Positions 42,654-59,153 of a stretch of DNA of 64,000 nucleotides are shown here, one piece after another (position 1 is the stretch's first letter; every line of letters starts with the position of its first letter). The notes under the pieces are model-generated. The model ran no database searches. It was not told the origin of the DNA and saw only the letters and a list, made by a program, of their open reading frames with translations. Origin of the DNA: Paenibacillus qinlingensis (GTDB taxonomy: Bacteria > Bacillota > Bacilli > Paenibacillales > NBRC-103111); the NCBI RefSeq assembly GCF_013204845.1, contig NZ_JABMKY010000008.1:1-64000 (forward strand). Direction: 5' to 3'. Position numbers and translations under genes: made by a program.

Positions 42654-43690
42654 CTAGTTAGAAGACAGAACCCATGCGTCATCAAAAGATACATCCACCG
42701 AGGTGGTTCTGAATCCGATTTTCCCTGTAGTTAATTCCGTTACAGGATTAGTCCATTCCGTCTTTAATACTCCATCCACGTAACCTTTTATCGTATTCCC
42801 TTGAATAGAAGCCTTGATCGTATACCACTGGTTCGCCTGAGCTGTGAAAGAAGTGCTGGATACTAAGGTCAGCTGTCCATTCACAGCTTTATATAACTCC
42901 AGCTTTTGATTCCCTACATTTATTCGATACAAATAATAATTATCCGCATTCTGCACCCGGAAGACGATGCCCGCATTGGCATTGGTGATGGGCATTTTCA
43001 CTTTACCTTCATACGTATAGTCCGTCCATGCATCACCAGCTGTAATGAGCGCAGTAGTTGAATTATTTTGCGTTAAAACTTTCGTTCCGTCTGTCACCAC
43101 ACTCCATGAACCTGAAGATGACGTCCATCCGGTCATACTTCCATTCTCAAAATTATCATTCAATCGGATGATTGGTGACACTAGGGCATCGTCAAAATGG
43201 ACGACCATCGAGGTGGTGCGGAATCCGATCCCGCCTGTTGTCAATTCCGTTATAGGATTGGTCCATGCCATTTTTAATTCTCCATCCACATAACAGGAAA
43301 TTTTATTCCCTTCTATAACCGCCTTAACTGTATACGACTGCTTCTCAACGGCTGCGAAAGGAGTGCTTGTTACTAGCGTCATTGATCCATTAACGGATTT
43401 ATACAACTCCAATTTCTGATTGGATGAATTGATTCGATACATATAATAATTATTGGCGTCCTGAACCCTGAAGACAATGCCTGCATTGGCATTGGTAATG
43501 CCCATTTCCACTTTGGCTTCATAGGCGTAATCCGTCCATGAGCCGCCAGCATTGGCGACAATAAGGGATGTTGTTGTCTGACTGCCGCTGGATAACATTT
43601 TATTCTTGTCGACTGTCGGTACGGTCCAATCACCTGAAACGGATGTCCATCCCGCCGTATCTCCATCTTCGAAATTTTCACTAAACAACG
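42654..43690 (-). repeat. tandem duplication of the C-terminal binding module
   Basis: The two modules encoded at about 43690-43165 and 43160-42654 share long identical stretches (NANAGIVFRVQ, NQKLELYK, EWTNP/AWTNP, TELTTG, GFRTTS) and similar DNA, showing a recent internal duplication. Boundaries are approximate. Confidence 0.8.
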
Positions 43691-45308
43691 GTTTCGTATT
43701 GGCAAAGATGATGCCACTTACATTGGCATTTATTACACTAACTTTCAAGTCAGTCAGATTAGTTGCGAGCTTGCCTTTTACATAAACATCTGAGAACATG
43801 ACACCATTAACCATTCCACCTTTGGTGAGGTTCCCGGAAAGTCTGGATTGCTCTGATCCCACTTCGCGCAGATTAATGTTCTTTAATACTACATTGTTTA
43901 CATTGCCAGAAGTACTAGTAGAAACTGTAAGCCAATGATTCCCGAATTGATTAATACCGACTCGTTCAATATCGATATTTTCAAACGTAATATTTTGAGC
44001 GTAACCTTCCTCCGGAAGCGTATTACTTGTGTAACCATGATCAACCAGCAATGCCCTTGCGCTTTGATACACATACGAATTTCGGACGGTCACTCCGATT
44101 TGCGCCTGGGCTACCCCTTGGCCAATTTTGAAAGCCGCGCATCTGGTCCATGCAAATGCGTCATCAAAAACTACATTTTCCAAATGTTCAAGCGCTCCAG
44201 GCCATCCGCTAGACATTCCCGTCTGCAACCAGGTTTTTGTAGAATACGTGTCATCATCCGATATGGCAATCGAATGTTTAACAAGCACATTCTGACTCTC
44301 GTTGATATCGATAACATCATTTTCGATTTTGTATAAATCCTGGAATCCTTTGAGATTTTTGATTGTAACATTGTCAGAACGAACTACCATGAACGACCAG
44401 AAACCAGCATCCCGCAATGTTAAACCATCAAAATTAAAATTTGTAGTTGCGAGCGGTACGATCAGATTATTCAATAATCCTTCATTTTTATTCGGTGCTG
44501 GCATTTTTCGTTCTCGCATCGCTATGCCTTTTCCATCAATGGTTCCCCTTCCCCGTATGGTGATATTGCTGGAGTCTACGGCAGTACGAATAAAATACGT
44601 TCCATCCGCATTTCGTGAATCCTTTCGAAAATCAATCCCGTAATCTTCGCCCTTGCCTGTACCGACAATGACCGCGCCTCCGGCTAGGTAAAAGGTCACA
44701 TTGCTTTTCAAAGTCAGATTCCCGCTCTTATAGACACCGGCTGGAATGAATACAATGCCACCGCCAGCTTGATTGGCGGCGTCGATAGCCTGCTGAATCG
44801 CGTTGGATGCCATCGATGTCCCCGTATTATCCGCGTTGTATGGGGATTGGGTCACATTGTAAATCCCGGCACCTGTGGATGGGGGAATATTCGTCTCCAA
44901 GGGATCTGCTGCGATGACAATTCTCTTCGTCTGGTCATTGATTGTTACGATCACATATGTGGAGGTAGAAAGCGTAAACGTTAGCTTGTTCCCATTAACA
45001 GTCCCCTCGATGTTTTTGGCCATTGGACTGATGGAATAGGAGGTAATCGGCACATTAGAAGTAACCTCAATACTGACCGTTCCTGCAAAAGAAAATTGAG
45101 CATAGTCATAGTCATCCTTATAGTTAATCACAGGAATGGACTGATTATCTGCTTTCAATGAAAATACACTGGATGCCGTATAGATGGACGGCATCGGGTA
45201 ATTCTGAATCGTAGCTGGAGCTGCTCCAACCGTTCTGGGTAACAAGCCTGTGATTATGATGCCAAGCACGACCAACAAGCCGACTAATTTTCTTGTCACT
45301 GTAAACAT
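42654..45308 (-). CDS. secreted beta-helix glycosidase (GH28/GH49-like) with two C-terminal beta-sandwich modules
   Basis: The 884-residue precursor has a signal peptide (about 1-29). An N-terminal beta-sandwich (about 40-140) precedes a right-handed beta-helix that starts like pectin-acting enzymes (AIQQAIDAANQAGGGIVFIP near 170-190) and contains VIDINESQNV and ISDDDTYSTKTW, the likely catalytic acidic cluster, near 340-365. From about 545 to the end are two copies of a 165-residue LamG-like module, each starting near FE(D/N)G and containing NANAGIVFRVQ(D/N)A and TGxIGFRTTS. AAGGAGG precedes the ATG. The substrate is probably a plant or microbial polysaccharide; the exact GH family is uncertain. 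Confidence 0.82.
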   Translation of the reverse strand: MFTVTRKLVGLLVVLGIIITGLLPRTVGAAPATIQNYPMPSIYTASSVFSLKADNQSIPVINYKDDYDYAQFSFAGTVSIEVTSNVPITSYSISPMAKNIEGTVNGNKLTFTLSTSTYVIVTINDQTKRIVIAADPLETNIPPSTGAGIYNVTQSPYNADNTGTSMASNAIQQAIDAANQAGGGIVFIPAGVYKSGNLTLKSNVTFYLAGGAVIVGTGKGEDYGIDFRKDSRNADGTYFIRTAVDSSNITIRGRGTIDGKGIAMRERKMPAPNKNEGLLNNLIVPLATTNFNFDGLTLRDAGFWSFMVVRSDNVTIKNLKGFQDLYKIENDVIDINESQNVLVKHSIAISDDDTYSTKTWLQTGMSSGWPGALEHLENVVFDDAFAWTRCAAFKIGQGVAQAQIGVTVRNSYVYQSARALLVDHGYTSNTLPEEGYAQNITFENIDIERVGINQFGNHWLTVSTSTSGNVNNVVLKNINLREVGSEQSRLSGNLTKGGMVNGVMFSDVYVKGKLATNLTDLKVSVINANVSGIIFANTKPLFSENFEDGDTAGWTSVSGDWTVPTVDKNKMLSSGSQTTTSLIVANAGGSWTDYAYEAKVEMGITNANAGIVFRVQDANNYYMYRINSSNQKLELYKSVNGSMTLVTSTPFAAVEKQSYTVKAVIEGNKISCYVDGELKMAWTNPITELTTGGIGFRTTSMVVHFDDALVSPIIRLNDNFENGSMTGWTSSSGSWSVVTDGTKVLTQNNSTTALITAGDAWTDYTYEGKVKMPITNANAGIVFRVQNADNYYLYRINVGNQKLELYKAVNGQLTLVSSTSFTAQANQWYTIKASIQGNTIKGYVDGVLKTEWTNPVTELTTGKIGFRTTSVDVSFDDAWVLSSN

Positions 45309-45607: not shown

Positions 45608-47170
45608 TTACTTTTTCGCAGTTGCATACCAATCATTGACTTCTTTGTAGCTAGCGTCTCCGCCTGTTGATTTGAATTTGGCAACGAATGCATCAATTCC
45701 CGTAAACGGTTCAGCACCAAAAATCAACTTGGTTGTGTAATCGTTAGATTGCGTATTTAGACTTTGAAAGTTCTTGGAGAATTCCACCATATACGGTGCG
45801 TAACCTAAAAGATCGGTTACTTTAGTAGGTTCGGGCGCTAATCCATTCAGTGAATTCCAGGCATCGTACAGACGCATATCCTTACGTACACGTGCCTGCC
45901 AATAAATAGGGTAGTTCTTATCGTCCGTTCCCGTTAAGAAGTTATTCGCTTGATTCCGCTCATCGGTAAAGATGGGTTGAATCGGTGAATATGCACCGTC
46001 TTTGAGCGTATAATGTTTGTTTTCTTCCCCAATTGCCATCGTTCTGAACGTATCTTTCTCCAGCTTCGCATTCATCCATTTGATGGCATCTTCCGGATGC
46101 TTGGATGCTTTTGGGATGAACGTAATACGGTCAAAGCCTTTCGAAGCAGATAGGCCCGTTTTACCATCTTTACCTTTCACTGCAGGGATAAACGTTGCTT
46201 TCGCAGTTGGAATATTTTTCGTTAAAGCATCAGCAATCGTAGGGACATCCGACCAGTTCATCATGAGGATACCGGCTTTACCACTTGTAAATTTCTCTTT
46301 CGTCGTTGCTGCCTTATTAGCAGCAAATTCTTTGTCAATTAAGCCTTGTTTAAATAGATCAGCTACAAATGCTGCATAATCCTTGAAGGCGGGGTCCATC
46401 ACACGAGGCGTTAATTTACCATTCACATCATTCCAGAAATTCGGCATGCCGAAAGCACCAACTATATTAGCAATAAAAGATGAATCACCACCGACGGTTA
46501 AAGGAATATTCCCATCGCCATTCCCGCCTGGATCTTTCTCTTTAAACGCTTTCAAGACGGTAACTAGCTCATCAAGTGTTGTCGGCATTTTCAAACCGAC
46601 TTTATCCAGCCAATCCTGCCGAATGTACAGGTCTGTATTAACAGTCCGGGTGCTTTTCGTTGGAATGGCATATAGCTTCCCATCAACCTTGGCAGCCTCT
46701 AAAGCTTCAGGATCAATGACAGCTTTAATGTTCGGCCCGTATTTATCAAGGAGCGGTCCAAGATCGACTAATGCCCCCTTTTTTGCATAATCGGAATAAA
46801 GCGCTTTAAAATCAGTGGTTCCTGCTATAGTCACCGCATCGTATGGCTCTCCTGAAGCGATCAGGATGTTCAGTTTATCTTGAGGTTTATCCTGCGGAAG
46901 CATATCGTACTGAACTTTATAACCCGTAGCTTTCTCCAAATACGTAGCAACAGGGTAGGTGTTATAATCATCCTTTTGCCAAATTTGCAACGACTTTAGT
47001 TCCGGCTTTACTGCCGCTGCCGTTGGTACTGATGACGATGCTGTTGATGATGCCGGCGCTGACGTGGTGCTGCTTGAGCTGGTCCCACCTGAGGAACAAG
47101 CAACGAGCGATGAAACTGACAAGCAAGCTGTAAGCGAAACGAGCATCAGCTTTTTGTTTTTTTTCAACAT
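45608..47170 (-). CDS. sugar ABC transporter substrate-binding lipoprotein
   Basis: The 520-residue precursor has a lipobox SLVAC (Cys about 25) followed by a long Ser/Thr/Ala linker. The body shows DKLNILIASGEPYDAV near 105, IRQDWLDKVGLKMPTTLDEL near 190 and a calcium-like loop reading DPGGNGDGN. GGGAGG precedes ATG 47170. It is the last gene of the operon, 66 bp after the YtcP-like permease. The secreted beta-helix glycosidase encoded downstream may generate its ligand. Confidence 0.9.
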   Translation of the reverse strand: MLKKNKKLMLVSLTACLSVSSLVACSSGGTSSSSTTSAPASSTASSSVPTAAAVKPELKSLQIWQKDDYNTYPVATYLEKATGYKVQYDMLPQDKPQDKLNILIASGEPYDAVTIAGTTDFKALYSDYAKKGALVDLGPLLDKYGPNIKAVIDPEALEAAKVDGKLYAIPTKSTRTVNTDLYIRQDWLDKVGLKMPTTLDELVTVLKAFKEKDPGGNGDGNIPLTVGGDSSFIANIVGAFGMPNFWNDVNGKLTPRVMDPAFKDYAAFVADLFKQGLIDKEFAANKAATTKEKFTSGKAGILMMNWSDVPTIADALTKNIPTAKATFIPAVKGKDGKTGLSASKGFDRITFIPKASKHPEDAIKWMNAKLEKDTFRTMAIGEENKHYTLKDGAYSPIQPIFTDERNQANNFLTGTDDKNYPIYWQARVRKDMRLYDAWNSLNGLAPEPTKVTDLLGYAPYMVEFSKNFQSLNTQSNDYTTKLIFGAEPFTGIDAFVAKFKSTGGDASYKEVNDWYATAKK

Positions 47171-47236: not shown

Positions 47237-48112
47237 CTAACCTTTCACTGAGCCAATCAGAACACCTTTGACGAAATGCTTTTGGAGAAACGGATAGACG
47301 AGCAGCATTGGAATAATAGAAGCAATAACGGTGGCCGATCGTATGCCTTCAGGCGAAATCTTCATGATATCGTCCACGGAGCTATTCAGGGCAGTCGAGC
47401 TGTCTGCATCCATAACAATATCCCTTAGATATAATTGCAAGGGTTTCAAACTTGCTTTCGAAATATACAGCATAGGATGAAAGTAGTCATTCCAGAAATA
47501 CACCGCATAGAATAGCGCAATTGTAGCAATAACCGGCGTGCTTAGCGGAAGAATGATACGGAAAAGAATCGTAAAATTGCGAGCCCCATCCATTTTGGCT
47601 GACTCCTCTAACGCTTCAGGTAAAGATTCATAATAGCTCTTAATTACCAATAGATTAAACACGCTAATCAGTGCAGGCAGCATTAAGGACCACAAACTAT
47701 TGATGAGGTGGAGTTCCTTCATTAGTATGTAATTGGGAATGATGCCACCATTAAACAACATCGTAAAAATGAACAGGATCAAAACAAATGGAATTCCTGG
47801 CAGATGCTTCTTGGATAAGGGATAAGCCGTTAAAGCCGTCAACATAATCGCAAGCACTGTTCCCACAACCATAACAATAATGGACACGGAGATTGCATGT
47901 AAAAACTGACTTGAAGATACGACATACTTCATCGTTTCTAGTTGAAAGCCCACAGGCAGAATCCCAACCTTACCCGAGATGACTGCTGATTCATTACTTA
48001 AGGCTTTGGATAGTACATTGAGCATAGGCAATAGCGTAAGCACGCTAGACAATAACAGTGCAGCATATACGCAGATATCTAGGGACCAATCACCAATTGT
48101 TTTCTCTTTCAT
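47237..48112 (-). CDS. sugar ABC transporter permease (YtcP-like)
   Basis: The permease has about 291 residues from ATG 48112 (GGAGG seven bases upstream; the frame opens at 48130 inside the partner gene). It has six segments, the EAA-type loop EESAKMDGARNFTILFRII near 185 and the ending PFLQKHFVKGVLIGSVKG. It sits 11 bp after the LplB-like gene. Confidence 0.92.
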   Translation of the reverse strand: MKEKTIGDWSLDICVYAALLLSSVLTLLPMLNVLSKALSNESAVISGKVGILPVGFQLETMKYVVSSSQFLHAISVSIIVMVVGTVLAIMLTALTAYPLSKKHLPGIPFVLILFIFTMLFNGGIIPNYILMKELHLINSLWSLMLPALISVFNLLVIKSYYESLPEALEESAKMDGARNFTILFRIILPLSTPVIATIALFYAVYFWNDYFHPMLYISKASLKPLQLYLRDIVMDADSSTALNSSVDDIMKISPEGIRSATVIASIIPMLLVYPFLQKHFVKGVLIGSVKG

Positions 48113-48123
48113 AGCTGCACCTC

Positions 48124-49080
48124 CTACCAAATGCTTCGCTTGACCACTTTTTTGCTGAGCTCATTGCCCAACACGATCAAGAGGAATCCAATTACCGAAT
48201 TAAACAAACCTACTGCTGTACTAAAGCTATAGTCTTGCTGTCCTAGACCTATTCGATATACATAAGTCCCAATGACATCACCAGATTGATAAACAACGGA
48301 ATTATACATGGTCAAAATTTGTTCCGTACCTGCTTCGAGTAAATATCCGAGACGCAATACAAGAATCAGGATAATCGTAGGCACGATACCCGGCAGAGTA
48401 ATGTGCATCATCTGGCGAATTCGCCCAGCCCCATCAATAGATGCTGCTTCATATTGCTCTTGCTCAATGCCCGCGATCGCCGCAATAAAGATAATCGCGT
48501 TCCATCCGGATTCCTTCCAGCCTGCGGTAAACACCAGCACACTCCGGAAATAGTCATTATCAAGAAAGAACGATATCGGCTTACCACCGAAAAACGCAAT
48601 TACATTGTTGACCAAACCTCCGCTTGGGGAGAGTATGGTAATGAACAGTCCAGAAATTATTACCCAAGACAAGAAATGTGGCAGAAAAATAATCGTTTGA
48701 ATCGAACGCTTGAACCAGCTTTTACGTACCTCATTTAGCAGCAGCGCAATAATAATCGGAACTGGAAAGAGAAGCACAAGCTTGTATAAACTGATTAAGA
48801 GTGTGTTGATAAATACTTGCATAAATTCTTCCGACTGGAGTAATTTCTCGAATTGCGCCAAACCAACCCATTTACTTCCCGTAAATCCATCGAAAATGTT
48901 AAAATCCATGAACGCAATGATAATCCCATACATGGGCGTATATTTGAATAGCAGTAAAAACAATAATCCCGGAATTAGCAAAACATAGAGATCTAAGTTT
49001 GTGAGAAACAGTTTCCATTTATTCTTGCTAACTTTCGTCGTTCTGACACGTTGTTTCACTTCCAATGTTCTAACGCTCAT
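48124..49080 (-). CDS. sugar ABC transporter permease (LplB-like)
   Basis: The 318-residue permease opens with a basic tail and LYVLLIPGLLFLLLFKYTPMYG, has six segments and an EAA loop EAASIDGAGRIRQMMHITLP, and ends SKKVVKRSIW. GGAGG precedes ATG 49080. It is the first gene of its operon, behind the GATGAATC-repeat promoter at 49185-49249 and divergent from an AraC regulator gene. Confidence 0.92.
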   Translation of the reverse strand: MSVRTLEVKQRVRTTKVSKNKWKLFLTNLDLYVLLIPGLLFLLLFKYTPMYGIIIAFMDFNIFDGFTGSKWVGLAQFEKLLQSEEFMQVFINTLLISLYKLVLLFPVPIIIALLLNEVRKSWFKRSIQTIIFLPHFLSWVIISGLFITILSPSGGLVNNVIAFFGGKPISFFLDNDYFRSVLVFTAGWKESGWNAIIFIAAIAGIEQEQYEAASIDGAGRIRQMMHITLPGIVPTIILILVLRLGYLLEAGTEQILTMYNSVVYQSGDVIGTYVYRIGLGQQDYSFSTAVGLFNSVIGFLLIVLGNELSKKVVKRSIW

Positions 49081-49184
49081 ATCGCGTTCACCTCCAAGTT
49101 GTAGAATTGAATTACAAAGACAATTATCAAGTTCGAAGCCCCGGCTATCGAATAGGATCTCTTCCGCACTAGCTTACAAATACT

Positions 49185-49249
49185 ATTATAAAACGCTTTC
49201 CTGTTTGGCGAGAATGATGAATCTTCCTTTTATACTTGATGAATCTTAC
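49185..49249 (-). promoter_or_regulatory. AraC-type operator and promoter of the ABC operon
   Basis: Two direct repeats of GATGAATCTT (plus-strand starts 49216 and 49238, 22 bp apart) are followed on the minus strand by exactly 25 bp and then a TATAAT box (49190-49185). The -35 region is poor (TTCTCG), as in activator-dependent promoters. A GAAAGCGTTTTA stretch between operator and -10 resembles half a cre site. The block from 49209 to 49249 recurs almost unchanged at 51911-51951. Confidence 0.82.
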
Positions 49250-49277
49250 TGTTTTTCGAAAAAAAGGGGCAAATTAA

Positions 49278-49293
49278 TGAAAGCGCTCTCCTT
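49278..49293 (+). promoter_or_regulatory. cre-like CcpA site
   Basis: ATGAAAGCGCTCTCCT differs from the cre consensus at one position. It lies between the ABC operon operator and the AraC gene and directly abuts a plus-strand TATAAT (49293-49298). Confidence 0.45.
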
Positions 49294-49310
49294 ATAATCT
49301 AAAAATACTA

Positions 49311-49351
49311 AAGAGGCATGAATTCGGCACTGTACCGGACTCATGCCTTTT
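49311..49351 (+). terminator. stem-loop just after a plus-strand TATAAT box
   Basis: AGGCATGA pairs with TCATGCCT and an inner TTCGG/CCGGA stem adds stability; CTTTT follows. It starts about 15 bp downstream of TATAAT 49293, so a plus-strand transcript begun there would be stopped at once or attenuated before the AraC gene. Confidence 0.5.
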
Positions 49352-49504
49352 AGCTTTACCGATGGATAAGTCGTGGCCCCCTTCTCTCCGCTTTTGCGAC
49401 CAAGGACCCGTTGCATTATCCGTTTCCCTCTCTTTTCTCTGTCAATCTCAACGGAGAAACTATATAATCGGAGCAGAATATTTATTTTCTGGAGGAATCT
49501 TTCT

Positions 49505-50335
49505 ATGACGAGGTCAGTTCAACACCAATCCAGCGTCATTTATGCTAATTATTTCACCCACACTAAGCCCCACTTTGTTTCGTATAAAGACGGGTTAAAC
49601 TTTTACATGTTCCGGCTTCAGTCAGAAGGATCCTGTCGTGCATTAGTGGGAGGGAAATTAGAGACCATCATCCCCGGTGACCTGCTTATTTATCATCCTG
49701 ACCAGCCATACGAACTCAATGTGCAGCCCCGAAGCGCTCCAGATTCGGGCGCGGTTCAACCTGTCGGCGACTATTTCCTGGCTGGTAAGGGGGAATGGCT
49801 GGACTCGTGGTGGAAAGACAAAGACTTGCCCACTAAAACAAACATTGGCTTTGACGATACAGTCATTACCTTATGGAAGCATATAATCAGCGAAAAGAAA
49901 AAAGTCATGCAGAACCAAGAGGAGATCATGGACTATCTGCTTCGAACGCTTTGTTTGACACTAGAACAAGTAATTCAGAGCAAACAACGCACCAAAGGAG
50001 CAGATATCGCCCATAAACTTAAGCTATTTATAGAAAGTCATGCCAATGAACCTCTTAGTTTAGAAAAAATAGCTGCCTCTGTCGGATTAAGCGTCTCACG
50101 CTGCTCCTATCTGTTTAAAGCCGCTTTTGACCAATCGCTGTTCGCCTATTGCATTGACGTTAGGCTAAAACTTGCGCAACAGCAGGTGCTCTACAGCAAT
50201 CTTGCGCTGGAGCATGTTGCGGAAAAGACAGGCTTTGAGAGTTACCCTCATTTTTGCCGAGTTTTCCGTGAACGATTTGGACATCCCCCAGGCGAATACC
50301 GGCGCAAATTCGGATATGGGCTCAATCCTTATTGA
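49505..50335 (+). CDS. AraC-family transcriptional regulator (cytoplasmic)
   Basis: The protein has about 276 residues from ATG 49505, which has TGGAGGA upstream; the frame opens at 49373. An N-terminal cupin-like sensing domain (about 15-120; GGKLETIIPGDLLIYHPDQPYEL) is joined to a C-terminal AraC domain (about 175-270) with SLEKIAASVGLSVSRCSYLFK and FCRVFRERFGHPPGEYR. It is divergent from the ABC operon at 49080 and convergent with the FAD oxidoreductase gene, whose stop it overlaps by 7 bp. The paired GATGAATC-type repeats before both of those operons are its likely targets. A TATAAT at 49463 may be its own -10. Confidence 0.9.
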   Translation: MTRSVQHQSSVIYANYFTHTKPHFVSYKDGLNFYMFRLQSEGSCRALVGGKLETIIPGDLLIYHPDQPYELNVQPRSAPDSGAVQPVGDYFLAGKGEWLDSWWKDKDLPTKTNIGFDDTVITLWKHIISEKKKVMQNQEEIMDYLLRTLCLTLEQVIQSKQRTKGADIAHKLKLFIESHANEPLSLEKIAASVGLSVSRCSYLFKAAFDQSLFAYCIDVRLKLAQQQVLYSNLALEHVAEKTGFESYPHFCRVFRERFGHPPGEYRRKFGYGLNPY

Positions 50336-51849
50336 TGCGGGCTTAGGACGCCAACGTGTAATACCTGATTTTCTTGAACCAGTAAGGAATGAAGCTGCTC
50401 ATACTTTACATTTTGAACGATGCCGTCCGTATTAAGAGCCAGCACGGCTGCAGCCGCAGCCGATTGCCCAAGGATCATAAATACGGGCTCCATCCGGATC
50501 GAACCGTAGGCTGCATGGGTAGCCGAAACGCATACCGGTACAATTAAATTGGTGCACTCTGTCTGTTTTGGCACAATTGCTCGATAGCTTATCGGATAAG
50601 GGGCTTTTAATTTTACGTAAAATCCGCCTTCTGTGCTAACATATCCGTCTTCGTTTACATAATACTGGGTGTGGTGCGAGTCCATGGCAAAGGATCCCAT
50701 TCCGATGGAATCGGCTACTTGGTTTTCCAATCTGACTACATGCTCGGTCACTACATAGTCACTAATCATTCTGCGGGATTCTCTGACGTACAACTGTGGA
50801 GTCCAGTGACCTGTCTCAATAAATTCATCGAGCGGTAAGCCCCACGGCTTGTAGACTGCCCGAATTGCTTCCGGCACTCGCGGATGATTTTGAATGGTCC
50901 ACACATAGCCTTGCTGATAAAGACGATGAGCATGCCACATGTGTTCCCGCTCAAGATAATCCGCCTCTGCATAACTATGGTTCATTCCGTTATAATCCGT
51001 GGAAATGCCACTGTTGTTATTGGAATCTGTCTTATCCGAAGTTACCATATTCAATTTAAAAAATTTCGAACTTTGCCCCTGCTCGATGGCTCGGAACAAA
51101 ATTTCATAATCAGCTTCGTTATATCCCTCAGGCTTTTCGATCTCCAGACGGTTGTCCGGATTATTCGTCAAACACATGCGGAAGTTATAAGCTTGAAGCT
51201 TCGTGTCTCCATCGCCGATGTTGCCGCCACGTTGAGGATTAACTCGCAAAAGCAAGCCGCTCGAGGGTACCCCTTTAATGACATAAGGATCGATTCCGCT
51301 GGGTAGCTCATTGCGTTCATTGCCAGGATGAATGCCGTTTAGTGTCTCACCATATTGTGAATTAGACTCCCGACCAACAAAATAGGATACGCCCGATTTG
51401 CCCATCAAATCCCCTTCATACGTAGCATCAATAAACACTTTACCTTGATAGAGGTTCCCGGATTCCATGCAAATGGAAATAATTTGGGAATCTTTCTTTG
51501 TAACCCCGTCTTTAAGACGCAGCCTTTCTCCATATATGACTTCAATGTTATGTTCCGTCACCAAATCTTGCATAACTTCGAGCGCTACTTTAGGTTCAAA
51601 CATCCAGCAAGCTCCGTCATGTGAATATTTCTGGGCTACCCGTTTGTAAAACTCTAAAGCTTGGCCCCCAATAGCTTCCTTCATCCCGAAATCCGTATCT
51701 CCCAAGCCTCCCGTGGTCAAGCCCCCAATCCGCTGACTTGGCTCGATCACGACTGCGTTTTTACCCATTTTTTTCGCTTGAACAGCGGCCATAATGCCTG
51801 CCGCAGTCCCTCCATAAATGACAATATCACACTGTTTCTCCTGGTACAT
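50329..51849 (-). CDS. FAD-dependent oxidoreductase (GidA-like FAD_oxidored family)
   Basis: The 506-residue cytoplasmic protein has an N-terminal dinucleotide-binding fold (DIVIYGGTAAGIMAAVQAKK, 8-27, then VIEPSQRIGGLTTGGLGDTDFG), a middle section with DATYEGDLMGKSGVSYFVGR and a C-terminal return to the FAD fold with THAAYGSIRMEPVFMILGQS. This type is common in sugar-degradation clusters of Paenibacillus and Bacteroidetes and may oxidise a sugar or cyclitol; the substrate is unknown. AGGAGGAGG precedes ATG 51849. It is monocistronic and has the same operator-promoter arrangement as the ABC operon at 49080, so the two are probably co-regulated. Confidence 0.85.
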   Translation of the reverse strand: MYQEKQCDIVIYGGTAAGIMAAVQAKKMGKNAVVIEPSQRIGGLTTGGLGDTDFGMKEAIGGQALEFYKRVAQKYSHDGACWMFEPKVALEVMQDLVTEHNIEVIYGERLRLKDGVTKKDSQIISICMESGNLYQGKVFIDATYEGDLMGKSGVSYFVGRESNSQYGETLNGIHPGNERNELPSGIDPYVIKGVPSSGLLLRVNPQRGGNIGDGDTKLQAYNFRMCLTNNPDNRLEIEKPEGYNEADYEILFRAIEQGQSSKFFKLNMVTSDKTDSNNNSGISTDYNGMNHSYAEADYLEREHMWHAHRLYQQGYVWTIQNHPRVPEAIRAVYKPWGLPLDEFIETGHWTPQLYVRESRRMISDYVVTEHVVRLENQVADSIGMGSFAMDSHHTQYYVNEDGYVSTEGGFYVKLKAPYPISYRAIVPKQTECTNLIVPVCVSATHAAYGSIRMEPVFMILGQSAAAAAVLALNTDGIVQNVKYEQLHSLLVQENQVLHVGVLSPHQ

Positions 51850-51886
51850 GTTATGCTTCCTCCTCCTAATTACGTTTACGTTTATT

Positions 51887-51951
51887 ATTATAAGCCTATC
51901 CTCAATCTATCGAGAATGATGGATCTTCCTTTTTAACTTGATACATCTTAC
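51887..51951 (-). promoter_or_regulatory. AraC-type operator and promoter of the FAD oxidoreductase gene
   Basis: Plus-strand GATGGATCTT at 51918 and GATACATCTT at 51940 are 22 bp apart. On the minus strand 25 bp separate them from TATAAT (51892-51887). The surrounding CGAGAAT and the AT-rich spacer are the same as at 49209-49249. Confidence 0.82.
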
Positions 51952-51979
51952 TTTTTTAGCTTGACTGCTACTGACACAA

Positions 51980-52028
51980 ATGACCCGGAGGGTGAGCACT
52001 TTTTTAAAGTGTCCACCCTCCGGGTCAT
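51980..52028. terminator. strong stem-loop after GHL6-type gene
   Basis: ATGACCCGGAGGGTG pairs perfectly with CACCCTCCGGGTCAT, with an inner CACTT/AAGTG stem. T-runs are weak. It lies 42 bp past the stop at 52070 and isolates that gene from the oxidoreductase promoter. Confidence 0.8.
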
Positions 52029-52069
52029 CTATATGTGCATATGGCATATGTAACTTCTCAAATCTTCGT

Positions 52070-54049
52070 TTATACGTCCATGACAACCATTTGATGGCAA
52101 TCTATTCTTGGCACCTCGTAATGCACAGTTCCATCTGAATCCGTTACGAAAGCGAGCTCTGTCATCTGCGGGGCCAGATACACCTTTTTGACCGGCTTAT
52201 CCAACCGCACTGATACCTTAGTCTCGAAAATCGGTACTACATCTTCAATTACTTCGACGTTCTTCCCCCGTTTGACAGGCACGGCATACAAGAGGTGATT
52301 AACAAAGCGCCGCTCTGTCGGCTGCTCCATAAGCGTAACGATTCCCTGTGCCGGCAAGTTCGTCGAGAGTGTTTTTGCAGGTCCTAACAGCTTGTTCAGC
52401 GCATATAAAACGACTTGTTTGAGAACGAGACTGCCCACCGTCGCATATTCCTCGAAGACATTCCACGCTATGTAAATACCATTACTGCTTTCAACCATCC
52501 CTGCTCCGTTCGATTGGAGAGTACTTGGGGTATGTTGATGCGAACAAAACGTATACACATCACGGTTAAAATAAGGATTCTCCCGGTGCCCTAGCATCAC
52601 CCCATCCCCGCTCAATTCAACTTGCTGACCCTTGGAATAGAAGACGAAGGATGCTTCCGGCACGCTTTCCAGCGCAAAATGCGGGTGAAAATAAGAAGGT
52701 TTATACGGATTCATCCCGGCATAGCGCACCCCAAGATCAATTGAAAATGCAGTTCCCTCTACGTTTAGCCCAGATTCCCCGGAAGCTAGCAGCTTTCCAC
52801 CCTGTGCCATGTAAGCGTTCAGCTTGGTTTCAAGTTCCGGGGTTATCATAATACGATCTGGCAAAATAATAACGCGATAACGATGGAAATCGCTATCCAT
52901 ATCAATGACGTCGAACAGAATGTTACCTTCCAGCAGCATGCGAACTGCTCCAGCATCCCCATTGCCTGTTCGATCGGCTTCCCCCTCTTCTGGCCGTGAG
53001 ACTGCAGCTTCCACCGTAAATAATCCAACGTCAGCAATGCTTAGAACATTGGCGCACCATGGTTCCTTGCTTTCCACTTCGGCATAAGCCGCGCCAATAA
53101 TCGCATAAGTTGCAGGATCCATGCGGCCTTCCGGATGCAGTTGATCGCCTATGGAACAGCTTGCCCCATTCGCGATGCTGAGTGCTGTTTCGTAGCGCAG
53201 CGCATTCGGATGCTTGTAGCCGCCGAATTCTCCCCACGACGTGTGGAATTTGCCTGTCATGCCAAGAAACGGCATCCCAAGTCCTTGCGCGTAGCGGGCC
53301 GAAAGTGGGAAATGATCATAGCCCCACCCTCCGGTCGGTAAAGATTCCAGTTCCAGATGCGAGTTCATTGCAGCCAAATCACGGCGTCCACGGCGGATAT
53401 GTCCGCCGTTGTGGAACACGGGCAGCCCCGGTTTCACAGCGTCAATCGTTTCTCGGACCCTGCGAGTGTAATTGCTGTATGTGCGTTCGCCTAGATCTAA
53501 CACTGCCCTCACGTCACGGGGATCCATTCCCTCAGACCGTAATTGGCTAACGCAGTTGTGACAGTAGCATTTGCGTACCCCGACAATATCGAGAAAAATA
53601 CCGTCCGCATCATAGCGCCGAACGACTTCGTCAATTTGACGTAGAAGCACGTCCAGATACGGTGAATTCATACAAAAAGAGTGATACCCCGGCTTCATAA
53701 AGCCATCCACCCACGTCGTCTTGTCATTGATGTCCCGAATTAGCCATTCGGGATGTCGGCGCGCCAGCTTTTCATCTACGCCTGCAGATAGATAGACTGG
53801 CGTTTTAACGCCAATGTCATGCGCTGCTTCGATCATCTCCCCAAGCAGATCAAATGTTAACTGAGGATGCATCTCATTGGCTTCGGAAGGATGATAGGCC
53901 CAGCCATGATGACATTTGGAAAAAACGGTGATTGAATCCACATGGCCCTTGCGAAGCATGTCCTGAAACTGCCCTTTGTCGAAATCGCGCCCAATCCCTG
54001 GGATTGCTTCCGACGTATGAAAATCAAGGTGAACTTGACGAAAACGCAT
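52070..54049 (-). CDS. GHL6-type glycoside hydrolase with beta-galactosidase trimerisation-like domain
   Basis: The protein has about 659 residues from ATG 54049, with AGGAGG ten bases upstream; the frame opens at 54106. It has no signal peptide. The N-terminal TIM barrel shows VHLDFHTSEAIPGIG (6-20), TVFSKCHHGWAYHPS near 45 and DGIFLDIVGVRKCYC near 170, a candidate catalytic Asp. From about 380 a flavodoxin-like domain (YRVIILPDRIMITPELE, GGKLLASGESGL) resembles the GH42 trimerisation domain. Relatives are called alpha-L-fucosidase-like or hypothetical glycosidases. It is divergent from the AraC gene at 54166. Confidence 0.8.
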   Translation of the reverse strand: MRFRQVHLDFHTSEAIPGIGRDFDKGQFQDMLRKGHVDSITVFSKCHHGWAYHPSEANEMHPQLTFDLLGEMIEAAHDIGVKTPVYLSAGVDEKLARRHPEWLIRDINDKTTWVDGFMKPGYHSFCMNSPYLDVLLRQIDEVVRRYDADGIFLDIVGVRKCYCHNCVSQLRSEGMDPRDVRAVLDLGERTYSNYTRRVRETIDAVKPGLPVFHNGGHIRRGRRDLAAMNSHLELESLPTGGWGYDHFPLSARYAQGLGMPFLGMTGKFHTSWGEFGGYKHPNALRYETALSIANGASCSIGDQLHPEGRMDPATYAIIGAAYAEVESKEPWCANVLSIADVGLFTVEAAVSRPEEGEADRTGNGDAGAVRMLLEGNILFDVIDMDSDFHRYRVIILPDRIMITPELETKLNAYMAQGGKLLASGESGLNVEGTAFSIDLGVRYAGMNPYKPSYFHPHFALESVPEASFVFYSKGQQVELSGDGVMLGHRENPYFNRDVYTFCSHQHTPSTLQSNGAGMVESSNGIYIAWNVFEEYATVGSLVLKQVVLYALNKLLGPAKTLSTNLPAQGIVTLMEQPTERRFVNHLLYAVPVKRGKNVEVIEDVVPIFETKVSVRLDKPVKKVYLAPQMTELAFVTDSDGTVHYEVPRIDCHQMVVMDV

Positions 54050-54165
54050 AGAACTGTCGCCTCCTAAATCTGTATTTGATTTAACTATAGCTTGAAACAT
54101 AAACATGATATAGTAATAGCAGCGACTTAAAATAGCACATTTCCGACCAATGGGAGATCCAACTT

Positions 54166-55041
54166 ATGACTACCTGCTTGCAACTTCGCATTCCGCCCTT
54201 GCCGCAATTTCTCACCATCGGTTTCTCAACCTGGCCGGTTGGCGCCCAGCATTTTGGTCGAACTTTTGACGTCTACGATTTGCTGTTCGTTCGAAGTGGG
54301 ATGCTGCATATGACAGAAGAATCGTACGCGTATGATGTAGGTCCTGGCGAAATGCTGTTGCTTGAACCTGGCATCCCGCACATCGGCCACAAAGCTTGCG
54401 AGGTGCCGACCGAGATTTACTGGGTCCATTTTAAGCATGAACCTGCGATCTCTAGGCTTCCGGAGCATCAGATCTCCTGGTCGGTGCCCGTGCGCGAAGG
54501 AAGAGACAGCGATTTGGCGCCTCAAGAACAGTATCTGTATGTGCCTAAATTCAGTTCCTACGATCAGGTGGCGGTGGAGCCGATTTTGGATGAAATGCTG
54601 CGACTCAGGTCGTCCTTGACGATGGAGTATGCCGTCGATCTGCAACAACTGTTAGGCCGACTCCTGTCACAACTGCAAGCTTCATTACGGTCAGGCCGGC
54701 TAGGCAGCCGATCTTCCGTGCTTGCAGCGCAGGTGATGCGTTATTTGGAAGTGCATCTTCGCGAACCTTATCATGCTGCACACATGGAACAGGAGCTGCA
54801 TTTCAACGAGGACTATGCTGCGCGCTGCCTTCGTAAGCATACAGGGCTAAGCCCGCTCCAGTATCATCATGTGGTGCGAATGGAGGAAGCCAAGCGACTG
54901 CTCAGCACAAGTGAATTATCCCTACAAGAAGTCGGAGATCGTGTCGGTTATGAGGATTATAACTACTTTATCCGCGTCTTCCGCAAAACCGTCGGCTGCA
55001 CGCCAAGCGCTTTCCGCAGGTCGGTGTACAGGTATGTGTGA
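54166..55041 (+). CDS. AraC-family transcriptional regulator (cytoplasmic)
   Basis: The 291-residue protein has an N-terminal cupin domain (about 20-100; YDVGPGEMLLLEPGIPHIGH) that would bind a small sugar, and a C-terminal AraC domain (about 190-285) with RMEEAKRLLSTSELSLQEVG and FIRVFRKTVGCTPSAFRR. GGGAGA precedes ATG 54166. It is divergent from the GHL6-type gene across about 115 bp and 4 kb from the ABC operon at 58974, whose promoter carries the same kind of paired GAYGAATC repeats. Either or both may be its targets. Confidence 0.9.
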   Translation: MTTCLQLRIPPLPQFLTIGFSTWPVGAQHFGRTFDVYDLLFVRSGMLHMTEESYAYDVGPGEMLLLEPGIPHIGHKACEVPTEIYWVHFKHEPAISRLPEHQISWSVPVREGRDSDLAPQEQYLYVPKFSSYDQVAVEPILDEMLRLRSSLTMEYAVDLQQLLGRLLSQLQASLRSGRLGSRSSVLAAQVMRYLEVHLREPYHAAHMEQELHFNEDYAARCLRKHTGLSPLQYHHVVRMEEAKRLLSTSELSLQEVGDRVGYEDYNYFIRVFRKTVGCTPSAFRRSVYRYV

Positions 55042-55383
55042 GGCAAACATTGCGTCCCTTACCAGCAAGCAAGAAGCCTATCAAAGAAGTGTTAGGTGAC
55101 AAATAAGTTCTGAAATGCCAAAGGGGCTGTCCCGCTGCCGAATTGTATTTAGATGTAAAAACTACAGCTAATGTTCTCGAATTCGAGGTATTTTCGTAAT
55201 TCCGTTTCAAATAGATGGAGAAAATCCAGTTAAATTGCAGGAAGTCCGTTTATTATTCATCGATCCTAAGGTCAACAACGAAAGAAGAGGCCGTTTCAAT
55301 AAGTCTACATAGACTTTTGAGACAGCCTCTTTTTACGAAGAAAGGGGTAGCGCCATAGATAGCGTCAAAGAGGATCGGATCGC
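55042..55383. other. intergenic region
   Basis: About 340 bp between two convergent transcripts. It contains a CTCGAATTCGAG palindrome near 55180 and an unexplained 150-bp stretch of even base composition with no reading frame of note, then the terminator at 55284. No gene is seen. Confidence 0.5.
55284..55335. terminator. long terminator stem-loop between convergent genes
   Basis: AAGAGGC and GCCTCTT form the outer stem, AAGTCT and AGACTT the inner one, with a few mismatches between. TTTTT follows on the plus strand and a T-rich stretch on the minus. It lies between the AraC gene and the binding protein gene. Confidence 0.75.
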
Positions 55384-57024
55384 CTACTTAGACTTAGCGT
55401 ATTTCTCATTGTACATCTTGACAAGCTCGTCGGTTTTCAGCTTTTTGAAGCCATCAACGAAGGCATCCCATTCCGTCATTGGCTTTTGACCAAGAATAAA
55501 TTTCGTTAGGTTTTCGCTCATATACGTCTTCAACGGGGTTGTAATTTCGGCGAGTTTTGACGATTCGTCTTTGGACCAGTTGATGGAAGGCTCGGGATCG
55601 CGCAGTGCGTTCATTTCCTTCAGTTTTTTCATCCGGTCTGGGATGATGGCGGCCTGTTGATCCTCTCCTGCCTTAAAGCCGAGCAAACCGAAGCGGTTAT
55701 ACGACGGAATGACACCGGTTAGCCACCAGCTACCATAGCCGTAATCGGTTTGTTTTTTCATACCTTCAGGGTATTTGCCATCCGCTCCGACGGTCCAGAC
55801 GCTTTGGGTTTTGTCGAGCTTATATCCGGAAGGCGTCGTTTTGTCACGGGTGAACGTCTCATTTTCAACGCCAAGCATGAAGAACTCAATGCCCTCATCG
55901 CTGTAAGTGTAATCCATAGCCTTGATAATTTGATCGATGTATTTCGATTTTTTATTAATAACCATCGGCGAGCGGTAAGCGATGTTATAGTGTGGATCTA
56001 GATTTTGGGTATACGTTTTGCCGTCAATCTTCAATGGATAAATAGGCTGAATGTCGCGAGCTGGATCCTTCTTGGGATTGAGATTGTTCGACATCGCAAG
56101 TTGCTCCATCATTAGCGGGAACTGGCCGCTCTCATAACCCGCAAACAACTCCTGATCTTTCATCGTCAAGAAATTGGGATGCAGCAGCTTCTCTGAATAC
56201 ATCCAACTCATCAGCTCTGTCCACTGCTTGTAACGATCTTTAAAGTCGACTGGCGCAAAAACGAACTTTTTCGTCTCAGGGTCCATCATCATTCCGTTAC
56301 CCGGACCGTTATTAACATTGATGCCAAAATACATCTGCGTCCGCTCCGCAAAATAATCGAATCCAAGACGTGACGAAGTAATGTAGTCACCCGTCTGTTT
56401 CTTCAGCGCGAGCATAGCCTTCTTGAAATCGTCGACCGTCTGAATCTGGCTAGCATCCAGTCCCTCTTTCTTCAACAAATCGTTACGAACGAGCCAGAGC
56501 GTTGTGGCAAAATCGAAATCCTGTACGAGTGGAAACGCATACAATTTACCATCCTCCGGATGGCGCATCACCTTGTCGGCCTCTGGATACTTTTTAAGCC
56601 ATTTTTCCAGATTCGGCAACTTGCCGGCCTTCATATAATCATCGAGTGCCACGAACAACTGCGGTCCGTAATCCTTAAACGTGCGGTCATCTTGGAAAAA
56701 TTTCATCATATCTGGCAGTTGTCCGGAGCTGAGTACGATGTTCATTTTTTCCTTAAACGCGTCGCGAGGCGGGCTGTTCACGTTAAATTTGACGCCTGTC
56801 CGCTTGCCCCACTCGACGAACACTGGCAAGTCGCTGCCGATCGGCAGTCCCGGATCCCAAGGTGTCAGTACCTCCACGGTTGGAATTTCGCCGGCAACGC
56901 TTTTACCGTTCCCAGTTGAAGCGGTAGGCGTGGCAGCTTTCTCTGTGCTCTGGCAACCGGCCAGCACTGTCATACAGATGGATAAGGTGGCGGCTGTCAG
57001 CCTCCAATTCATATTTTTGCCCAT
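55384..57024 (-). CDS. sugar ABC transporter substrate-binding lipoprotein
   Basis: The 546-residue precursor has a lipobox VLAGC (Cys about 24). The mature protein is of the long LplA-like type: KEKMNIVLSSGQLPDMMKFF near 90, VRNDLLKKEGLDASQIQTVD near 180 and FILGQKPMTEWDAFVDGFKK near the C-terminus. AGGAGGGG precedes ATG 57024. It is the last gene of its operon, 71 bp after the YtcP-like permease. It is more divergent from the other four binding proteins than they are from each other, suggesting a different ligand. Confidence 0.9.
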   Translation of the reverse strand: MGKNMNWRLTAATLSICMTVLAGCQSTEKAATPTASTGNGKSVAGEIPTVEVLTPWDPGLPIGSDLPVFVEWGKRTGVKFNVNSPPRDAFKEKMNIVLSSGQLPDMMKFFQDDRTFKDYGPQLFVALDDYMKAGKLPNLEKWLKKYPEADKVMRHPEDGKLYAFPLVQDFDFATTLWLVRNDLLKKEGLDASQIQTVDDFKKAMLALKKQTGDYITSSRLGFDYFAERTQMYFGINVNNGPGNGMMMDPETKKFVFAPVDFKDRYKQWTELMSWMYSEKLLHPNFLTMKDQELFAGYESGQFPLMMEQLAMSNNLNPKKDPARDIQPIYPLKIDGKTYTQNLDPHYNIAYRSPMVINKKSKYIDQIIKAMDYTYSDEGIEFFMLGVENETFTRDKTTPSGYKLDKTQSVWTVGADGKYPEGMKKQTDYGYGSWWLTGVIPSYNRFGLLGFKAGEDQQAAIIPDRMKKLKEMNALRDPEPSINWSKDESSKLAEITTPLKTYMSENLTKFILGQKPMTEWDAFVDGFKKLKTDELVKMYNEKYAKSK

Positions 57025-57095
57025 TTAGAACCCCTCCTGAATCGTTTATACGAATGCTATGAAAAAATAATTGTACACACTTGGAGCTACGCTGT

Positions 57096-57992
57096 TCAGC
57101 CCTTTACGGAGCCAACAAGCACGCCTTGCACGAAAAATCTTTGCACAAACGGGTAAATGAGCACGATCGGACCGATCGTCACGAAAATCGTCGCCATGCG
57201 CACGCTGATCATTCGCCCTGCGCCAGCAACTGGATCAACCTCCAGCGTATTCGCTTGGTCGAGCGCTCCCTGGGACAGTACTTCGTTAGCAACGAGAATA
57301 CGGCGGAGAATAATGGTGAGTGGCTGCATATCCGGCGATGTTAAATACATGAGCGGGCCGAAATAAGCATTCCACAGTCCGACCGAAGCGAACAGCGCAA
57401 TGGTTGCCAGAATAGCCTTGGAGAGAGGAATAACGATGCGGAGCAAAATTTGCCAATCGTTCGCACCGTCGATAAAAGCCGATTCATACAGCTCCTGTGG
57501 CATCGCCTGAAAATTAGTACGCAGAATAATAATGTTCCAGAAGCTAAATGCAGCCGGCAGCGTAATGGCCCACATCGTGTCGAGTAACCCGATATTTTTA
57601 ATGAGCATAAAACTAGGAATGAGGCCCCCGCTAAAGAACATCGTGAAGGTGAACAGTACAGACAGCTGTCGACGTGCCCGAAATCGGTTAATCGACAGTG
57701 GATATGCCGTGAGGCAGCCGATTAGCAGTACAAGAAACGTGCCGAGCAGTGTATAACGAATGCTGTTCCAATACGCCAACACGATTTGGTTATCCCGGAA
57801 GACAGCCATGTAAGCCTCCCAGTTGATGCCCTGCGGCAGCAGCATTACCTTGAACAAGCCAACCGGCACAGGATTGCTTATCGAAAGCGCGAACATGTGC
57901 ACAAACGGCAGAACGATCGACAGCGTCAGTAGCAGCAACGCTAGAAAATTAGCCGTATTGAACAGCCGGTTGGCGAATCCAGTATTTTTCAC
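57096..57992 (-). CDS. sugar ABC transporter permease (YtcP-like)
   Basis: The 298-residue permease starts at GTG 57992 with GGAGG nine bases upstream. It has six segments, the EAA-type loop ESAFIDGANDWQILLRIV near 185 and the ending PFVQRFFVQGVLVGSVKG. It follows the LplB-like gene by 13 bp. Confidence 0.92.
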   Translation of the reverse strand: MKNTGFANRLFNTANFLALLLLTLSIVLPFVHMFALSISNPVPVGLFKVMLLPQGINWEAYMAVFRDNQIVLAYWNSIRYTLLGTFLVLLIGCLTAYPLSINRFRARRQLSVLFTFTMFFSGGLIPSFMLIKNIGLLDTMWAITLPAAFSFWNIIILRTNFQAMPQELYESAFIDGANDWQILLRIVIPLSKAILATIALFASVGLWNAYFGPLMYLTSPDMQPLTIILRRILVANEVLSQGALDQANTLEVDPVAGAGRMISVRMATIFVTIGPIVLIYPFVQRFFVQGVLVGSVKG

Positions 57993-58005
57993 GTGCAGAT
58001 TCCTC

Positions 58006-58974
58006 CTACCATAACGAATTTTGCTTCATAGCGCGACTAGCACGATTGGTTACGTACAGAATAAGGAAGGCGGCGACACTGTTGAGCAAGCCGACAGCAG
58101 TCGCATAGCTGAAATTCCGGTCAATAATACCCCGGCGGTACACGTAAGTCTGAATGACATCACCCACCTCGTAGATCGCAGGATTGCTCATGAGGTATGC
58201 CTTCTCGAAGCCAACGTTAATTACATCACTGGCGTGCAAAATAAATAGGATCGTAATGGTCGGCAGCATGCCCGGCAAGCTGATGTGCCAAATCCGGCGA
58301 AACCGATTGGCACCATCCATGTAGCTCGCCTCATATAGCTCGGGATCAATCCCGGTAAGAGCGGCCAAGTACAGAATCGAGCCCCAACCGATCCCCTGCC
58401 AAATACCGCTGCCGACGAATAATGTACGAAAGTACGACGATTCGTTGAAGAAGGCAATCGGCTCCATACCCAGCGACCCGAGCAGTAAATTGACCGGACC
58501 ATTCGCGCCGAGCAGCTCCATCATCATCCCGACGACAACGACCATCGCGATAAAATGCGGCAGGTAACTAACGGATTGAAAAAACTTTTTCCACCACTTG
58601 CTTGTCAGCTCATTCAACAGCAGCGCCAGCAGGATCGGCGGCCAAAAGCCGAAAAGCAGACTATACAAGCCAAGCAGCAGCGTATTCTTGACCACTCGCA
58701 CGGCATACGGATCGGCAAAGAAGCTCTGAAAATGCTTGAGACCGACCCACGGACTGCCGTCAAATCCGAGAATAAGATCGTACTGCTTGAAAGCGATAAT
58801 AATGCCGTACATCGGGATGTAGTTGAACAGCAAAAACCCGAGCACGCCAGGCAGCACCATTAAATACAAATGCCCACTAAGTCGCAGCTCCCGCAGCCAA
58901 CCCACGCCCCTCCGCCTCTCTAGCGGAGAAGTGAGTACAGCGGCCGCCCTGTTCTCTTTCAGTTTGTCGTTCAT
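58006..58974 (-). CDS. sugar ABC transporter permease (LplB-like)
   Basis: The 322-residue permease has a basic N-terminal tail, LYLMVLPGVLGFLLFNYIPMYG, six segments and the EAA loop EASYMDGANRFRRIWHISLP. GGGAGG lies a rather long 13 bases before ATG 58974. It is the first gene of the operon, behind the operator-promoter at 59082-59140. Confidence 0.92.
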   Translation of the reverse strand: MNDKLKENRAAAVLTSPLERRRGVGWLRELRLSGHLYLMVLPGVLGFLLFNYIPMYGIIIAFKQYDLILGFDGSPWVGLKHFQSFFADPYAVRVVKNTLLLGLYSLLFGFWPPILLALLLNELTSKWWKKFFQSVSYLPHFIAMVVVVGMMMELLGANGPVNLLLGSLGMEPIAFFNESSYFRTLFVGSGIWQGIGWGSILYLAALTGIDPELYEASYMDGANRFRRIWHISLPGMLPTITILFILHASDVINVGFEKAYLMSNPAIYEVGDVIQTYVYRRGIIDRNFSYATAVGLLNSVAAFLILYVTNRASRAMKQNSLW

Positions 58975-59081
58975 TACGCTTTTGTTTCCTCCCTTTCTCC
59001 GATAACCCGCTCCTTCTAGGTGGCCGCCACTGCAGCTACGCTTCGTACATGTAGGTTCATTTCGGTTACGCTTACAGTTTA

Positions 59082-59140
59082 ATTATATAAGCGCTTTCAT
59101 TAGGGGGAAATAGACGAATCGAAGACGATTATGGATGAAT
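59082..59140 (-). promoter_or_regulatory. AraC-type operator, promoter and cre-like site of the 58974 operon
   Basis: Plus-strand GACGAATC at 59113 and GATGAATA at 59134 are 21 bp apart. On the minus strand 25 bp separate them from TATAAT (59087-59082). A cre-like ATGAAAGCGCTTATAT (one mismatch) at 59100-59085 covers the region just before and over the -10, so CcpA could block polymerase directly. Confidence 0.72.
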
Positions 59141-59153
59141 AACAGAAAAGCAA

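Follow-up and report, generated by a model that had tools for sequence, protein, structure and literature searches.

The question raised by this locus, a 64,000-nucleotide stretch of the Paenibacillus qinlingensis genome (contig NZ_JABMKY010000008.1, positions 1 to 64,000, called the window below), is whether three operons preceded by similar direct repeats are controlled through one AraC-type operator. An earlier note, made from the letters alone, had claimed such a shared operator before two ATP-binding cassette (ABC) importer operons and a gene for a flavin adenine dinucleotide (FAD)-dependent oxidoreductase, and had named the AraC proteins encoded at 49505 and 54166, here AraC1 and AraC2, as the candidate regulators. 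The follow-up analysis gives a divided answer. Sites 1 and 2, before importer 1 and the oxidoreductase gene, would be operators of AraC1, site 1 would belong to a captured promoter, and site 3, before importer 2, would be a separate operator of a response regulator. Taken together, this reading is considered quite probable on the basis of sequence comparison. Gene calls are open reading frames (ORFs) with Pfam matches, and the elements on which the argument turns are as follows.

49211..49249, minus strand: site 1, predicted AraC1 operator before the importer-1 operon (distal core 49238-49245, proximal core 49216-49223)
49185..49190, minus strand: -10 box TATAAT of the importer-1 promoter, 25 bp from the proximal core, with the start codon 104 bases on
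51913..51951, minus strand: site 2, predicted AraC1 operator before the FAD oxidoreductase gene, among the 27 of 30 such sites described below
51887..51892, minus strand: -10 box TATAAT of the oxidoreductase promoter
59082..59142, minus strand: site 3, most likely a separate direct-repeat operator, with the -10 box of the importer-2 operon; putative site of a YesN-type response regulator
49505..50335, plus strand: AraC1, one-component AraC-family regulator (HTH_18), 276 aa
50329..51849, minus strand: FAD-dependent oxidoreductase (PF12831), the usual convergent neighbour of AraC1

The predicted operator of AraC1

The repeat cores start at 49216/49238, 51918/51940 and 59113/59134 at sites 1, 2 and 3, which gives spacings of 22, 22 and 21 bp, and at all three sites the end of the proximal core lies exactly 25 bp from a TATAAT on the minus strand, as the earlier note had described. 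Its distinction between two nearly identical blocks and a third that keeps only cores and geometry was borne out as well, since sites 1 and 2 agree across about 41 bp and site 3 has the cores and the gap alone in common with them. The genome scan proposed there was run on 8.9 Mb with a pattern derived from site 1 and up to three mismatches, and the three sites proved unique: GATTCATC-N14-GATTCATC-N25-TATAAT matched only site 1 (0 mismatches) and site 2 (3 mismatches), and the N13 form, which was run because site 3 requires N13, matched only site 3 (2 mismatches). Backward-pattern controls in the same genome gave 0 matches for N14 and 0 for N13. In an early repeat scan of 13 loci (about 3.8 kb each, short of some promoters), site 1 alone was matched.

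Searched for in 392 genomes of the order (49 genera) with up to three mismatches allowed, a 39-bp operator pattern occurred at 30 sites, distributed over 28 genomes from 7 genera; the control search over the 392 genomes gave 0 matches. There is one operator per genome, except for two in the window genome (G000) and two in G020. We take G020 to be Soil766, G011 P. oryzisoli, G014 P. plantarum, G039 P. hemerocallicola and G081 Paenibacillus sp. cl123. The surroundings of all 30 sites were inspected (24 regions newly fetched and six already present). Twenty-seven operators lie about 100 bp upstream of an oxidoreductase gene with a convergent AraC1 gene beside it; the remaining three are site 1, a degenerate copy in Soil766 contig 39 and a copy in P. 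hemerocallicola. An AraC1 search (E<=1e-90) matched 27 of the 392 genomes, every one of which carries the operator, and in the 28th operator genome, G324, AraC1 looks frameshifted.

AraC1 is present at 76-91% identity in ten named Paenibacillus loci. An eleventh match, from Chitinophaga, reached only 27% identity and was set outside these ten. An oxidoreductase homologue adjoins AraC1 in nine of the ten loci; that of P. hemerocallicola is only 57% identical and lies on the other side of AraC1, and at the tenth locus, the second one of Soil766, no oxidoreductase is left at the threshold used. The operator block is present in 8 of the 9 oxidoreductase promoters of these loci. The tblastn lists behind these comparisons were taken above 100 bits for the ten Paenibacillus loci, and above 150 bits for the operator surroundings, the AraC2/GHL6 loci and the six importer-2 loci of other genera (L150-L155) treated below.

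The 22-bp spacing holds at 30 of 30 sites but was set by the search pattern; independently of the pattern, sites 1 and 2 show it, as do 8 of 9 oxidoreductase promoters of relatives. Conservation was measured on 17 representatives of 28 oxidoreductase promoters (28 of 31 promoters kept; site 1, L069 and L117 left out). The commonest base reaches a mean of 0.91 across the 39-bp operator; the 60 bp upstream average 0.49, the next 20 bp 0.66 and the sequence beyond 0.61. The half-sites of sites 1 and 2 read about GTAAGATnYATCAA and GGAAGATCCATCATTCTC, as a direct repeat 22 bp apart. Of 31 promoters, 23 have a gap of 25 bp from operator to -10 box and the other 8 one of 24 bp, with TATGAT and TATACT forms counted. 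The best -35 match at spacings of 16-18 is 3/6 in 24 of the 31 promoters and 4/6 in 7; about 43% of random hexamers, likewise allowed three tries, score at least 3. This weak match is uniform across the promoters because the sequence there is the common operator, whose proximal half-site reaches the -35 position, and the promoters are without a strong -35 box. Direct repeats about two turns apart, a weak -35 region abutted or overlapped by them and a regulator with an AraC-type helix-turn-helix (HTH) were all found for sites 1 and 2. The class II activation proposed in the earlier note would fit these two sites, with their 24-25 bp to the -10 box and weak -35.

The HTH_18 match of AraC1 has E=1.3e-18, its relatives of solved structure (by sequence) include MarA, SoxS and AraC, and the HTH region is strongly conserved among 21 AraC1 sequences, the window's among them. 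For the oxidoreductase, no relative was found by sequence in the PDB at E<=0.001, and its structure model is poor (mean predicted local distance difference test score, pLDDT, 50.7). The oxidoreductase alignment kept 15 of 21 rows; L068, L073, L119, L127, L134 and L140 were left out, some of them running past a stop codon or mis-framed and some merely omitted. Linkage makes AraC1 the predicted cognate regulator of sites 1 and 2. As to the two regulators suggested originally, the protein encoded at 49505 accompanies the operator of sites 1 and 2, whereas that encoded at 54166 has a conserved motif of its own, and no evidence was found that AraC2 serves sites 1 and 2.

The gene neighbours of the operator loci vary and include GH28 or GH130 genes, importers and two-component systems. 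In three loci from other genera (L133, L124 and L132) the one operator present is flanked by the oxidoreductase gene and a GH130 gene divergent from it; by Pfam, AraC1 comes after genes for a histidine kinase and for a response regulator in L133 and after a response-regulator gene in L124. In L069 (10001-11193, Soil766 contig 39) the oxidoreductase is reduced to remnants and AraC1 has stops, with the operator kept, and in L117 (5227-6176, P. hemerocallicola) AraC1 looks open and the operator is directed at its 3' end.

Site 3 and importer 2

Importer 2 spans 55384-58974, and its neighbour AraC2 lies between it and the gene for a GHL6 protein (52070-54106).

58006..58974, minus strand: importer 2 permease, first gene behind site 3
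55384..57024, minus strand: importer 2 solute-binding protein
54166..55041, plus strand: AraC2 regulator, the usual divergent partner of the GHL6 gene

Were all three sites to form one regulon, under AraC1 alone or together with AraC2, the spacing and flanks of site 3 would have to be tolerated variation. Site 3 does keep both cores (2 mismatches including the -10 box) and the exact 25-bp gap, it is the sole N13 match in the genome, and AraC1 and importer 2 occur together in G000, G011, G014 and G056. However, its half-site flanks are AAGATnCATCAA as against TATTCATCCAT at sites 1 and 2, its periodicity is 21 rather than 22 bp, and the 39-bp pattern with three mismatches misses it, though the spacing of that pattern was fixed. 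Site-3-type repeats also stand before importer 2 in G093, G375 and G051. At E<=1e-90, AraC1 was matched in G056 but in none of these three. The same half-site and spacing are thus not found at all three sites, and a single regulon is very unlikely. The original claim of one operator at three operons stands for sites 1 and 2, whose operator occurs in 28 of 392 genomes with AraC1, and is not supported for site 3, given its other flanks and periodicity, its conservation in three genomes that lack an AraC1 match and the YesN-type regulator gene near it.

The conservation of site 3 goes with its operon. The 61 bp at 59082-59142, comprising both repeats and the -10 box (59082-59087, minus strand), do not differ between the window, P. 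oryzisoli and P. plantarum, and the sequence upstream diverges; in these two relatives AraC1 lies on contigs other than that of importer 2. A DNA search with 90 bp of site 3 found 4 of 104 genomes, namely the window's, G011, G014 and, with a 33-base match, G069. Protein-anchored comparison had a wider reach and gave six more importer-2 loci in four genomes (G093, G056, G375 and three in G051). A template of 29 positions with fixed geometry, taken from site 3, was matched there at 23, 26, 20, 20, 20 and 17 positions. First-order random sequences had means of 13-14, and 0 of 1000 reached the scores of the first five loci; for the sixth, p=0.008.

A gene for a YesN-type response regulator (Response_reg and HTH_18) is located just outside the window (contig 59, 65010-66548), with a histidine kinase gene (His_kinase) at 66567-68408 of the same contig. 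Among relatives, 7 of 8 loci have an ORF resembling this regulator close to importer 2, L075 ending before that place; it is weak and on the other strand in L155 and short in L152 and L153. With two-component genes beside the operon, and with a site conserved together with the operon independently of AraC1, site 3 is most likely a separate operator that would serve the YesN-type response regulator encoded outside the window.

Binding of site 3 by AraC2 was weighed as well. The AraC2 gene is beside importer 2 in three genomes (window, P. oryzisoli and P. plantarum), and AraC2-like proteins are present in 7 of 7 genomes searched. At L150-L155, however, no AraC2 match above 150 bits was found within 16-18 kb. 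The usual partner of AraC2 is the GHL6 gene, from which it is divergent in 7 of 8 loci of relatives, and its own intergenic motif is unlike site 3; near importer 2 it is the YesN-type ORF that recurs in 7 of 8 such loci. Regulation of importer 2 by AraC2 through site 3 is therefore rated unlikely, and the YesN-type response regulator is preferred.

Two observations concern the DNA on either side of importer 2. Between the GHL6 gene and AraC2 there is a direct repeat CGAC-N17-CGAC (window 54123-54147), which is 21-bp periodic and unlike site 3. Loci L078-L080, in which AraC2 identity falls to 45-47%, preserve this motif, and L081 preserves part of it; the motif is possibly the AraC2 operator. 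Directly upstream of site 3, at about 59180-59295 of the window, lies a simple repeat of the CTTCT/CTACTT type, which is missing from the equivalent position in P. oryzisoli and P. plantarum.

The origin of site 1

The importer-1 operon, with the hydrolase gene downstream of it, reads away from site 1 on the minus strand. The GH28 protein matches the NCBIfam rhamnogalacturonidases only far under the family cut-offs.

49170..49255, minus strand: candidate captured promoter, an 86-bp block around site 1 (88% to the P. plantarum oxidoreductase promoter, E=2e-25)
48124..49080, minus strand: importer 1 permease, first gene of the operon behind site 1
47237..48130, minus strand: importer 1 second permease
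45608..47170, minus strand: importer 1 solute-binding protein (SBP_bac_1)
42654..45308, minus strand: GH28-family (pectin-type) hydrolase with C-terminal lectin-like domains

Importer 1 has close counterparts in P. plantarum, Soil766 and P. oryzisoli (permeases 94-96% identical, binding protein 91-92%), and no match to the AraC1 operator was found upstream of its first gene in these three. A different, conserved promoter region precedes the operon there, and the window has only the last 35-45 bp or so before the start codon in common with it. In all three, importer 1 has a gene for a two-component response regulator no more than about 5 kb away. In the window genome this regulator is still present, on contig 34 and 97% identical to that of Soil766; it stands there beside an importer-1 paralogue (L165, 3895-14739; binding protein 76%), and the region upstream of this paralogue resembles the importer-1 promoter region of the relatives. 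The comparison with relatives envisaged in the earlier note thus upheld the blocks of sites 2 and 3, which are conserved, but not that of site 1; the tie that it saw between the oxidoreductase and the importer holds as a predicted link in the window genome.

Site 1 might be regarded as a recent copy of site 2, made by gene conversion or duplication, as the operator cores are near-identical and the sites are 2.7 kb apart. Over 102 bases, however, site 1 shares only 62 with site 2, which ranks 24th among the 30 promoters compared, and the best values are 81 (P. plantarum), 80 (cl123), 78 (G160), 77 (Soil766 contig 39) and 76 (P. oryzisoli). In the 43 bases past the operator it has 22 in common with site 2, and the counts for P. 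plantarum and Soil766 are 33 and 35. Because the oxidoreductase promoters of other species resemble site 1 more, site 2 was rejected as its source on the 102-base comparison, and such a copy is highly improbable.

These comparisons suggest instead that importer 1 took over a spare oxidoreductase promoter and that site 1 is derived. A natural candidate source is the oxidoreductase promoter neighbouring importer 1 in relatives. On the simplest reading, the genome lost a second oxidoreductase, whose promoter came to drive importer 1; the loss step is plausible because two relatives lost the oxidoreductase yet kept the operator. A recent natural rewiring, in which a glycan-importer operon swapped its own promoter for a spare oxidoreductase promoter and thereby came under AraC1, is favoured with moderate confidence. 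The sole other predicted target of AraC1 in the 392 genomes, at up to three mismatches, is the FAD oxidoreductase. It is also conceivable that site 1 is an unused relic promoter merely lying upstream of importer 1, given that two relatives hold operators without the oxidoreductase. But site 1 has 0 pattern mismatches and an intact -10 box, it is directed into the importer operon with 104 bases to the start codon, and the importer-1 promoter of the relatives is unrecognisable before importer 1 of the window. A relic is accordingly doubtful, and promoter capture is retained.

Sequences that look like cre sites for CcpA lie at the -10 boxes of site 1 (49188-49201) and site 3 (59086-59099) and also upstream of site 1 (49278-49291). 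Catabolite repression is therefore possible.

Proposed mechanism and known systems

In the mechanism proposed, AraC1, probably with a sugar ligand, would occupy both half-sites of sites 1 and 2 on one face of the DNA, contact RNA polymerase at the -35 region and turn transcription on by class II activation. Its widespread target would be the FAD oxidoreductase gene adjoining it. The importer-1/GH28 operon of the window genome would carry a second operator copy, apparently from another oxidoreductase promoter, in place of its own promoter, so that import and oxidation should be co-induced. Site 3, of the same geometry, would be a separate operator; its most likely ligand is the YesN-type response regulator whose gene lies upstream of importer 2, outside the window.

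Several points weigh against this scheme. AraC1, the oxidoreductase and the operator travel as one module, so co-occurrence alone is no proof of binding. In their likeness to site 1, cl123 (80 of 102 bases) and G160 (78) fall between P. plantarum (81) and Soil766 (77), and the likeness is thus not exclusive to second-locus promoters. The operator outlives the oxidoreductase in Soil766 contig 39 and in P. hemerocallicola; since it is kept without the gene, its persistence is no proof of use, and site 1 could be inert. At site 3, the fit is weaker in one of the six loci (17/29, p=0.008), and AraC2-like proteins (43-57% identical) are encoded elsewhere in four other importer-2 genomes, so AraC2 is not to be dismissed there by absence.

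If the scheme is right, AraC1 gains a precise predicted operator of 39 bp and a predicted regulon of nearly one target in 7 of 49 genera, and promoter capture suggests how an importer can move between regulators. Half-sites of AraC type that look alike, share the 25-bp geometry and lie less than 10 kb apart may serve different regulators, which calls for caution in motif-based regulon calls. No description of the AraC1 operator, its capture or AraC1 itself was found in the literature searched, which does not prove that there is none.

The kind of operator is already known from comparative genomics of the AraC family. In Escherichia coli, the I1-I2 sites of AraC and the sites of RhaS are direct-repeat half-sites, the proximal one overlapping the -35 region, from which class II activation takes place. 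AraC1 shares this site layout, although the regulators are only distant relatives. Among Bacillales, Bacteroides and Enterococcus, AraC-family rhamnose regulators are described with direct-repeat sites of 21-bp periodicity (PMC3870299). As far as the available part of that account goes, those regulons resemble the present case in the regulator family, the sugar genes, the direct half-sites about two turns apart and the comparative genomics by which they were found; they differ in that the AraC1 operator has a periodicity of 22 bp and the FAD oxidoreductase as its main target, and they are likened by layout, not motif. In Caldicellulosiruptor bescii, AraC-type one- and two-component carbohydrate regulators are assigned large-spacer tandem repeats upstream of promoters, read as activation, and the set includes two-component regulators adjoining ABC sugar importers (PMC8579813). 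Here too the likeness, widely spaced tandem repeats before promoters, is one of layout and not of motif; the genus is another, and the portion of that account available describes no promoter capture. For XydS/XydR of Clostridium cellulolyticum, a response regulator with an AraC-type HTH controls polysaccharide genes, with repeats and sequence likeness at or upstream of the predicted -35 boxes; according to the part of the paper available, no consensus binding site was identifiable for the family (PMC3572039). With its AraC-HTH response regulator and repeats near -35, that system would be a parallel to site 3.

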